A DNA stretch of 64,000 nucleotides from Altererythrobacter sp. TH136. Lineage in GTDB: Bacteria > Pseudomonadota > Alphaproteobacteria > Sphingomonadales > Sphingomonadaceae. Of the stretch, positions 59,714 to 61,719 are shown piece by piece. The notes below the pieces were generated by a model, which saw nothing but the letters and a program-made list of their open reading frames with translations, was not told where the DNA came from and searched no databases. A program made the position numbers and the translations under genes. Where the stretch lies: positions 744,001-808,000 of the forward strand of contig NZ_CP041409.1 of the NCBI RefSeq assembly GCF_007065885.1. Reading direction: 5' to 3'. Within the stretch, counting starts at the first letter, position 1, and every line of letters starts with the position of its first letter.

Positions 59714-60508
59714 ATGGCCAGCGCGCCGCAGCCGACCCTGCCGTTGTTCTACCAAGACCTCATGCCGCTCAACAGCCGCGATCATGGCAAGTACAAGATC
59801 AACCCGCCGCAAGGGTTGAAGTGGATGCGCGATCAGCACGCCATCCCGTTGACGGCTGACGAATTCATCCAGGCGCAGCGCAACTTCCCGATCGTGTTCA
59901 GTTCCGGCGAAGGTAGCGTGCCGCTGGCTCTGCTTGGGCTGAACGAAGGCGTGAACACCTTCTTCAACGATGACGGAATGCTGGAAGAGGACGTGTATAT
60001 CCCGGCCTATGCTCGCCGGTATCCGTACTTGCTGGCCCGGCTGACGCCTGATGCGCAGGAGCTGTCTCTGTGCTTCGATCCGACCGCAGAGGCGATCGGC
60101 GAATTCGACGAAGGCCGGCCGCTGTTCGATGACGAGGGCAAGCCGACCGAGTCCGTGGAAGGCGCGCTCAAGTTCTGCGAGCAGTTCGAAGAGGCGGGCG
60201 CCCGCACTCAGGCGTTCGTGGCCGAGTTGGTCAAGGCCGATATGCTGATGGACGGCGAAGTCGCCATCACTCGCAACGAGACGCCGGACCAGCCCTACAT
60301 CTACCGCGGCTTCAAGATGGTGAACGAGGAAAAGCTGCGCGAACTCGACGCCGAGACCGCCAAGCAGTGGACTTCGAACGGGATCATGGCGCTGATCTTC
60401 GCCCACCTGTTCTCGATGGACCTGATGCGCGTGGTCTTCGCGCGGCAGGTATCTCAAGGAAAGATCCAGGCGATCGAAGGTCAGCTGGAGACCCCGGCCG
60501 CCTCCTGA
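59714..60508 (+). CDS. SapC family protein
   Basis: 264-residue protein of the SapC family (named from S-layer regions; function not established). LPLFYQDLMPLNS..HGKY and FPIVFSSGEG.VPLALLGLNEG are the conserved segments, and the C-terminal RGF.MVNE.KL...D is typical. No signal peptide. Downstream lies the small-RNA candidate. Confidence 0.9.
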   Translation: MASAPQPTLPLFYQDLMPLNSRDHGKYKINPPQGLKWMRDQHAIPLTADEFIQAQRNFPIVFSSGEGSVPLALLGLNEGVNTFFNDDGMLEEDVYIPAYARRYPYLLARLTPDAQELSLCFDPTAEAIGEFDEGRPLFDDEGKPTESVEGALKFCEQFEEAGARTQAFVAELVKADMLMDGEVAITRNETPDQPYIYRGFKMVNEEKLRELDAETAKQWTSNGIMALIFAHLFSMDLMRVVFARQVSQGKIQAIEGQLETPAAS

Positions 60509-60539
60509 TCGATCGCGGATAGGCGGGCGCCAAGGCGGG

Positions 60540-60569
60540 GTTGAAACCGCTTTGCTGCGCGCCTATTTC
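60540..60569 (+). promoter_or_regulatory. Candidate RpoH-like promoter of a small RNA
   Basis: GTTGAA, 16 bases, CCTATTT; equivalently TTGAAA-N17-TATTTC. It fits the alphaproteobacterial heat-shock sigma form CTTGAA-N16-CYTATNT except for the first base, and is also the best -35/-10 pair in the window. It lies 32 bases after the sapC stop and no gene follows it on this strand before a strong terminator. Confidence 0.5.
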
Positions 60570-60575
60570 GCTCTT

Positions 60576-60679
60576 GCCCAGTTCGCGCTTCCCTCATGGC
60601 CGGATCGGGTTTGGTGCACCGATGTGCACCTCCTCCCTGAACCTTGGCCACCTCGTGCGTTTGCACGAGGTGGTTTTTT
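60576..60679 (+). ncRNA. Candidate ~104-nt small RNA with a CCUCCUCCC anti-Shine-Dalgarno motif
   Basis: Start inferred from the upstream promoter, end from the terminator. The transcript would contain hairpin GGUGCAC/GUGCACC (60613-60619 with 60624-60630) inside an outer GGGUUU/GAACCU stem; between the two 3' arms lies UCCUCCCU, so CCUCCUCCC (60629-60637) is mostly single-stranded. The terminator stem follows. CCUCCUCCC-type sRNAs are known in other Alphaproteobacteria (for example the CcsR group of Rhodobacter, under RpoH control). No ORF of interest is present. It may instead be the 3' region of sapC mRNA. Confidence 0.5.
60648..60679 (+). terminator. Strong intrinsic terminator
   Basis: CCACCTCGTGC and GCACGAGGTGG form a perfect 11-bp stem with a four-base loop, followed by six T residues: the strongest terminator in the window. 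It acts on plus-strand transcripts, from sapC or from the small-RNA promoter. Confidence 0.92.
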
Positions 60680-60686
60680 CATGGGC

Positions 60687-61625
60687 CTACTCGGCTGCGA
60701 GTGGCGTCGTCCTGGCGCCGCCCAGATTCGCGACTTCGCCGGCCAGCGCCCGGACCAAACCGGCAACCGTGCGGATCACTGCGCCCGCTCGCACGCTCGT
60801 TTCAGCGAACCGCGCGTCGAGATAGCTCGACCGGCATATCTCCAATTGCAGCGCGTGGATGCCCCGCGCTGGTGCAGCGTGGCGGTCGAGCACGTAGCCC
60901 CCAGCGTATGGTCGGTTGTGCGCGGCGACCCGGCTCTGCGCCTCCAGGAAGGTGAAAGCCGCGCTCACCAGTCCGCGGTCGCAGCTCGCGCCGAACCGAT
61001 CACCGATGACGAATTCGGGCGCCGGTTGTCTGCCTCCCGGAGAACCGAGCGGCGGCATCGAATGCAGATCGATCAGCAGCGCCGCGCCCCACTGATCCCG
61101 CAGCCGCTCCAGCGCCCGCGCCAACGCAGCGTGATACGGTGCGTGGATCAACGCGATGCGTGCATCGAACTCATCGCGCGGCATGGTCCCGCGCCAGATC
61201 TCCCCCAGCCCAGCCAGGCGGCGCGGCACCACTCCAAGTCCGCTGCGCGCGCGGCGATTGGCTAGTGAGTGCCGTGCGCCCCCGGCATTGCCGCCGGCGA
61301 TCATCGACCAGTCCATGTCATCGGGCGCCCGATTAAGGTCGACCATTGCCCGCGGTGCCTGCGCGACGAGCAGCGCAGCCCCGGTCGCCTCCGCGATGCC
61401 CCGGGCTAGCGAATCGACGTGCCGGTCCTCCAGTCGCAAGGCCGCATCGGCGGGATGGCGCATCCGGGCAGTCAGGGCTGCGGGATAGACGCGTCCGGCG
61501 TGGGGCGCCGCTATTAGCACCGGGATCGGAGCGCCGATCGGCTGGTGTAACTCGAACGCGGGAAGATCGGTTCCGGGGATCGTGCCCCCTCCCTTGCCCT
61601 CGCCCGGATAGCCCTCGCTCGCCAT
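60687..61625 (-). CDS. N-formylglutamate amidohydrolase family protein
   Basis: 312-residue zinc amidohydrolase-like protein. APHAGRVYP near the N-terminus, DLNRAP and IDLHSMPPLG are signature segments of the family that releases formate from N-formylglutamate in histidine breakdown; no other hut gene is nearby, so a different N-acyl substrate is possible. The ATG at 61625 was chosen; a perfect TTGACA-N16-TACCTC promoter ends 8 bases before it. Convergent with the small-RNA candidate. Confidence 0.88.
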   Translation of the reverse strand: MASEGYPGEGKGGGTIPGTDLPAFELHQPIGAPIPVLIAAPHAGRVYPAALTARMRHPADAALRLEDRHVDSLARGIAEATGAALLVAQAPRAMVDLNRAPDDMDWSMIAGGNAGGARHSLANRRARSGLGVVPRRLAGLGEIWRGTMPRDEFDARIALIHAPYHAALARALERLRDQWGAALLIDLHSMPPLGSPGGRQPAPEFVIGDRFGASCDRGLVSAAFTFLEAQSRVAAHNRPYAGGYVLDRHAAPARGIHALQLEICRSSYLDARFAETSVRAGAVIRTVAGLVRALAGEVANLGGARTTPLAAE

Positions 61626-61632
61626 GGATCTT

Positions 61633-61660
61633 GAGGTAATGCCCTCGGCGCGTGTGTCAA
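61633..61660 (-). promoter_or_regulatory. Candidate promoter of the N-formylglutamate amidohydrolase gene
   Basis: On the minus strand TTGACA (perfect consensus), 16-base spacer, TACCTC. The predicted start site coincides within a base or two with the ATG at 61625, implying a leaderless mRNA. Confidence 0.45.
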
Positions 61661-61719
61661 AGCAGGCCGCCAGCTTCGGCGCGAAAGATTTCTTAAGCGC
61701 CATGGGGTAAGACGCGCGC

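Follow-up and report, generated by a model that had tools for sequence, protein, structure and literature searches.

The gap between sapC and a convergent N-formylglutamate amidohydrolase (FGase) gene in Altererythrobacter sp. TH136 most likely encodes a small RNA that is transcribed independently and acts in trans, a sphingomonad homolog of the FGase-linked αR8 RNAs whose linker would repress mRNAs; we give this reading a probability of roughly 0.8. The gap is part of the window, i.e., the stretch of 64,000 nucleotides analyzed here, which belongs to a genome of 2.61 Mb in a single contig. An initial annotation, which proved mostly right, had described a candidate small RNA with an anti-Shine-Dalgarno motif, a promoter and a terminator. 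Our results support a small RNA gene here, along with its intrinsic terminator, a promoter-like site that is conserved and an anti-Shine-Dalgarno element that is accessible. The gap adjacent to sapC holds a real, conserved and functional-looking small regulatory RNA gene of sphingomonads. A known family largely explains this RNA, and what seems new is that it forms a diverged, so far unannotated branch in which the promoter and the surroundings of the seed are distinctive. Conservation, covariation, linkage and homology have their basis in the sequence, and transcription, Hfq binding, targets and repression are what we infer.

Locus and gene neighborhood

The predicted small RNA is ~105 nt long and runs from 60575 to 60679 on the plus strand, with its 5' end estimated from the -10 element. 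Upstream on the same strand lies sapC (59714–60508), which encodes a protein of the SapC family (PF07277, Pfam E 3.4e-67), and downstream follows the convergent FGase gene on the minus strand (60687–61703; PF05013, Pfam E 8e-66), the start codon of which is our own choice. The gap had been described as free of ORFs; in fact, mechanical ORFs with TTG starts (94, 237 and 103 aa) overlap it and continue into the FGase gene in antisense orientation, and we have taken these as chance occurrences.

Conservation and covariation

A DNA search gave matches at E ≤0.1 in 57 of 98 genomes, our own included, the weakest of which are probably due to chance, and 10 of 10 same-genus relatives matched at E 1.3e-24 or better. 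When relatives were searched with a covariance model, as the initial annotation had suggested, the model (R1; built from 28 of 86 deduplicated candidates, every one with a CCCTCAT loop) matched 249 of 298 family genomes at E ≤0.01, a count that includes our own genome and some of the training genomes, and gave no match in 49. Within the order, 93 of 147 genomes were matched at E ≤0.01, and all E-values from R1 are to be read as rough. The window RNA itself is matched at 60567–60677 with 115.1 bits, its own sequence being one of the 28 rows of R1.

In the alignment used for covariation (A2), which was fitted to the structure and holds 100 of the 110 ortholog loci (duplicates are among those dropped), two-sided changes occur at 25 of 31 pairs against a shuffle mean of 21.6, and 1 of 500 shuffles was as high. 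The same alignment has 629 cells with two-sided changes compared with 162 in shuffles, and 96.9% of its pair cells are standard pairs compared with 74.7% in shuffles and 33.6–51.6% in slid versions. From a second alignment, made with MAFFT and comprising 28 rows, RNAalifold predicted 33 pairs, 21 of them with two-sided changes. Counts of motif and promoter given below refer to 104 of the 110 loci, as those with identical cores or with less than 125 bases upstream were dropped.

Scanning named genomes for the exact core gave at least 120 stretches, of which 80 were listed; two of these are titled only Alphaproteobacteria, one Actinobacteria, and the others bear sphingomonad names. The contig titled Actinobacteria (L123) carries sapC, a window-type RNA and FGase at ~57% protein identity, and is probably a mislabelled bin.

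Predicted fold and terminator

The fold of 60576–60679, which had been put forward as a check, is far more stable (-50.5 kcal/mol) than that of shuffled sequences (mean -32.3 kcal/mol, z -5.18), and 60573–60679 gives z -5.74. All elements of the fold are on the plus strand. Hairpin 1 (60576–60610) is predicted with a C-rich loop (CCCTCAT at 60591–60597), and its helix has two-sided changes at 9 of 9 pairs and 92.8% of cells paired in the 100-sequence alignment. Among the 104 orthologs, this loop reads CCCTCAT in 63 and CCCCTTT in 34; the other 7 have neither. The predicted hairpin 2 (60613–60630, GGTGCAC/GTGCACC) corresponds to helix 3, with two-sided changes at 7 of 7 pairs and 99.3% of cells paired. 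In the minimum-energy fold it is followed by an unpaired linker, TCCTCCCTGAACCTT (60631–60645), the presumed seed with the anti-Shine-Dalgarno core.

The terminator described at first is in place. Hairpin 3 with its T6 (60646–60679) forms an intrinsic terminator within the scanned range of 60000–61500, the hairpin at 60646–60675 running directly into T6, and its helix (helix 4) has 99.5% of cells paired. An outer GGGUUU/GAACCU stem that had been described around the motif is absent from the predicted fold. GGGU is part of hairpin 1 and GAACCU stays single-stranded, which places the motif in the unpaired linker 60631–60645.

It is extremely improbable that the gap holds a mere terminator used by both convergent genes, in which the motif arose by chance. 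The two genes are indeed convergent and the terminator hairpin is matched on the minus strand as well (60673–60648), but the region outside the terminator has an invariant linker and two more hairpins that covary, and the RNA is homologous to a known sRNA family (see below). The bare terminator was rejected because helices 1–3 covary.

The seed linker

The 9-mer CCTCCTCCC is present at 60629–60637, as initially annotated, and occurs once more within the window, on the minus strand. Only its first two C are paired in the predicted fold. The idea that the 9-mer is a conserved unit did not survive the conservation check, as it is exact in only 42 of 104 orthologs; its first three bases vary, and in the window copy two of these three pair within hairpin 2. 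The conserved element is rather the unpaired linker UCCUCCCUGAACCUU. Across the 28-row alignment, CCTCCCTGAACCTT is invariant, and CCTCCCTGAACC followed by TTGGCC is found in 101 of 104 orthologs, most of which were chosen by that core. Invariance of the core in the 80 named loci is circular because these loci were picked by the exact core pattern. The first 30 loci, our own included, were picked by DNA similarity, and 30 of 30 have CCTCCCTGAACC, the 12-base core. Where the αR8 RNAs have the 10-mer UUUCCUCCCU, the window reads CCUCCUCCCU; the last 8 bases are identical, and they are unpaired from 60631. The window lacks the exact αR8 10-mer, which 5 of the 104 orthologs have.

Promoter and origin of the RNA

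Both promoter sequences of the initial annotation were recovered on the plus strand, i.e., a -35 element GTTGAA at 60540–60545 and, 17 bases after it, a -10 element CTATTT at 60563–60568. A TTG[AC] -35 followed by a -10 element in which 3 or more of the 4 key bases agree, only spacings of 16–18 being allowed, occurs in 96 of 104 orthologs compared with 9.3% of shuffles; for the stricter TTGA form the figures are 75 of 104 and 3.1%. Together with the covarying helices, this bears out the conservation of promoter and hairpins that had been named as a check. The spacing in the 96 orthologs is 17 in 65, 16 in 28 and 18 in 3, and the -35 element reads TTGAA in 70, TTGAC in 1, TTGAT in 4 and TTGC in 21.

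RpoH-type control had also been proposed. In favor of it, the TTGAA -35 is like that of hsp20 promoters: at hsp20 loci of relatives the site was found in 16 of 30 (TTGAA 14, TTGAC 2) and no promoter site in 14 of 30, while at groES loci of relatives it was found in 19 of 24, 18 of these with TTGAC. Against it, the bare promoter pattern is not enriched in our own genome, with 6 forward and 0 reverse sites compared with 9 and 9 in the reversed control; the zero on the reverse strand is odd. Of the six sites, one is that of the small RNA, one lies ahead of an hsp20 gene (the sole one found in this genome at E ≤1e-8), three lie ahead of ArsR-type, Rrf2 and secE genes, and one is inside an open frame. 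The site at hsp20 (L239 1501–1527; C1:400383–400409 of our genome) reads CTTGAA-N16-CTAGAT and lies 108 bases before the start codon, and this promoter is nearly identical to that of the small RNA. That the small RNA promoter fits the heat-shock type is suggestive only, and stress induction of the small RNA is plausible.

Alternatively, the small RNA might be cut from the 3' UTR of the sapC mRNA and act after processing, without a promoter of its own and with hairpin 3 serving as the sapC terminator. Such an origin is reported for the Rhodobacter CcsR RNAs, which arise by 3' UTR processing (PMC8625941). SapC was found in 99 of the 110 ortholog loci fetched (FGase in 101), and in 72 of 72 named loci with a SapC found by tblastn (72 of the 80) it is upstream on the same strand. 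Furthermore, a 20-nt inverted repeat (60519–60566, 80%) surrounds the -35 element and is possibly a 3' hairpin of the sapC mRNA that overlaps the promoter. Inverted repeats of at least 8 pairs at the -35 are patchy, occurring in 24 of 96 orthologs compared with 8.5% of control centers, as expected of an mRNA 3' hairpin. However, the promoter-like pair precedes hairpin 1 in nearly all orthologs (96/104), and sapC, which is at most 600 bases from the motif in 54 of the 72 named loci, ends 673–3700 bases before it in 18. SapC was also near 0 of the best 30 RF00519 loci from the class outside the family, i.e., the RNA does not need sapC. We regard processing from the sapC mRNA as unlikely, and transcription from a promoter of its own remains the preferred origin of the small RNA.

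Other anti-Shine-Dalgarno RNAs

The CCUCCUCCC motif is conserved in hairpin loops of the CcsR/cuckoo RNAs, and the initial annotation likened the small RNA to motif-bearing sRNAs of other Alphaproteobacteria. Membership of the CCUCCUCCC group (CcsR/cuckoo or αr14), with CCUCCUCCC in hairpin loops and control by a heat-shock sigma factor, would agree with the presence of CCTCCTCCC, the C-rich loop of hairpin 1 and the hsp20-like promoter. The αr14 model also gives the window 19.1 bits, and 2 of 20 orthologs reach 31.5 and 27 bits with it. CcsR1-4 of Rhodobacter sphaeroides resemble the window RNA in being alphaproteobacterial small RNAs that carry a CCUCCUCCC motif and are linked to stress, the stress link of the window RNA being predicted. 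However, CcsR1-4 are described as processed from the ccaF1 (DUF1127) mRNA (PMC8625941, PMC10253847), and association with a DUF1127 gene and an RpoHI/RpoHII promoter is reported for the CcsR/cuckoo RNAs (PMC10253847). The window RNA has a TTGAA -35 in common with hsp20 promoters. Its neighbors are SapC and FGase, not a DUF1127 gene, and its 9-mer, exact in 42 of 104 orthologs, is in the linker rather than in a loop. As for αr14 (NfeR1, RF02344), unpaired anti-Shine-Dalgarno motifs are common to both RNAs; αr14, though, is described with three hairpins and the motif in every loop (PMC7143759), and the window score is far under its gathering score of 58.8 bits. Among the matches listed, the sole αr14 match in our genome is elsewhere. 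Motif conservation, linker position, neighbors and scores largely refute membership of the CcsR/cuckoo and αr14 RNAs, which we consider very unlikely.

Homology to the αR8 family

The initial annotation knew of no annotated family member at this locus. Our results do not support the view that no known family is placed here, as the αR8 RNAs (MmgR, SisA) are reported beside the FGase gene in most species (PMC12559287) and FGase neighbors the window RNA. The hallmark of αR8 given in that report is an internal single-stranded 10-mer, UUUCCUCCCU, located 3' of a hairpin (PMC12559287). In Rfam, the best match of the window RNA is RF00519 (named suhB, described as mmgR), with 27.5 bits compared with a gathering score of 41 bits. 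The 20 further orthologs behaved similarly, as 0 of 20 reach the cut-off (best 39.3 bits) and 9 of 20 match at E ≤1. Taken as a test of αR8 membership, the exact 10-mer was likewise negative for the window RNA. Other features of αR8 are present: a Rho-independent terminator follows the motif, the PF05013 neighbor is kept (101 of 110 orthologs), and homology in sequence and structure is seen in the cross-matches of R1 to canonical loci. R1, for which sphingomonad sequences alone were used, matches 29 of 30 RF00519 loci from the class at E ≤1 and 23 of 30 at E ≤0.01, one of these matches running through a tandem copy. Of the best 30 RF00519 loci from the class outside the family, 24 have FGase within 3 kb, convergent in 24 of 24.

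In sister families of the order, R1 matched 43 genomes, and among 20 loci fetched from these, 18 score above the RF00519 gathering score and 13 have a convergent FGase; intermediate sequences occur here, e.g., CCTCCCTGAACTTTGGCCAC (L322). Within the family, one ortholog (L345 989–1065; G130:C210) has SapC upstream, FGase convergent and the exact 10-mer followed by GAACCTTGGCC. It scores 79 bits with R1 and 43.6 bits with RF00519, and is the only family ortholog over the RF00519 cut-off among the matches listed. By its sequence, L345 appears to link the sphingomonad branch to the canonical αR8 family. From FGase linkage, the R1 cross-matches, the sister-family loci and L345 we conclude homology to αR8. 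Since the window copy falls short of the Rfam score and lacks the exact 10-mer, we call it a divergent αR8 branch and not an RF00519 member.

The window RNA and αR8 (MmgR of Sinorhizobium meliloti, SisA-D of Caulobacter crescentus; RF00519) have in common the convergent FGase, a hairpin, the unpaired CCUCCCU core, a GC-rich terminator hairpin, and sequence past the core (GAAC-UUGGCC in several loci). The window RNA differs in that CCUCCUCCCU replaces UUUCCUCCCU, hairpin 2 abuts the seed, the promoter is of the CTTGAA type, sapC is on the other side, and the score is under the Rfam cut-off. In some canonical αR8 loci a 5' hairpin is visible by eye, and hairpin 1 itself is thus probably not new.

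A separate RF00519 copy in sphingomonads

A separate RF00519 copy in our own genome (C1:1995745–1995826; L063 1501–1582) scores 47.6 bits and is thereby above the cut-off. At this locus, an ORF that by eye resembles a CoA-transferase subunit starts ~200 bases away. The best sphingomonad RF00519 copies are similar to the window RNA in having a hairpin, a CU-rich linker and a terminator, but their linker reads CCUCUCCC or CCUCUCCU, the copy in our genome having CCUCUCCC. FGase and SapC were found at 0 of the best 30 family RF00519 loci and not at L063 either, and R1 matched 2 of 31 high-scoring sphingomonad RF00519 copies at E ≤1 and 0 of 31 at E ≤0.01. As FGase accompanies 24 of 30 RF00519 loci from the class and 0 of 30 from the family, the window RNA holds the αR8 position while the best-scoring copies do not. 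These copies are a different RNA from the window RNA, probably a paralog, and perhaps correspond to what has been named SuhB in Sphingopyxis granuli TFA. SuhB of Sphingopyxis granuli is reported to bind thnR mRNA with Hfq (PMC6563040).

The FGase-linked αR8 might even have been rebuilt in the family, with the seed changing from UUUCCUCCCU towards CUCCCUGAACCUUGG, the C-rich loop of hairpin 1 becoming fixed and a heat-shock-type promoter in place, while the dispersed RF00519 copy with its other seed took a growth/carbon role. We regard this scenario as tentative and rather doubtful.

Proposed function

By analogy with SisA, the window RNA likely functions through anti-Shine-Dalgarno repression with Hfq. 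SisA is described with an unpaired anti-Shine-Dalgarno 10-mer, Hfq-dependent pairing and mRNA repression, and as being controlled by the sponge CrfA (PMC12559287), and MmgR is reported to limit polyhydroxybutyrate (PMC7143759). In the proposed mechanism, the conserved promoter would start transcription just ahead of hairpin 1, and the two hairpins and the terminator would keep the CU-rich linker open. The linker would then pair with the ribosome-binding sites of several mRNAs, like SisA in Caulobacter and probably with Hfq, and this pairing would block translation or promote mRNA decay. The branch mostly differs from canonical αR8 in that the start of the ancestral 10-mer is taken up by hairpin 2, that conserved bases extend 3' of the seed and that its promoter is of the CTTGAA type, which may confer a stress response. 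A search for seed complements in our own genome gave 6 sites, the RNA's own gene included, compared with 7 in the reversed control, and no convincing target. Among the papers found, titles and abstract openings mention the Sphingopyxis granuli SuhB as well as RNAs of Zymomonas, but nothing at the sapC/FGase locus.

Our results indicate a conserved regulator across Sphingomonas, Novosphingobium, Sphingobium, Erythrobacter and others, a large and much-used group, and a covariance model now exists for the small RNA of the sapC/FGase locus. Most of the tested copies from this locus escape the Rfam model, which scores a different RNA highly. Whether one cell divides its anti-Shine-Dalgarno regulation between two sibling RNAs thereby becomes testable in laboratory strains that are non-pathogenic. 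If the FGase-linked αR8 was indeed rebuilt in this family, one ancestral global repressor would have been divided between two siblings, one serving stress and the other growth.
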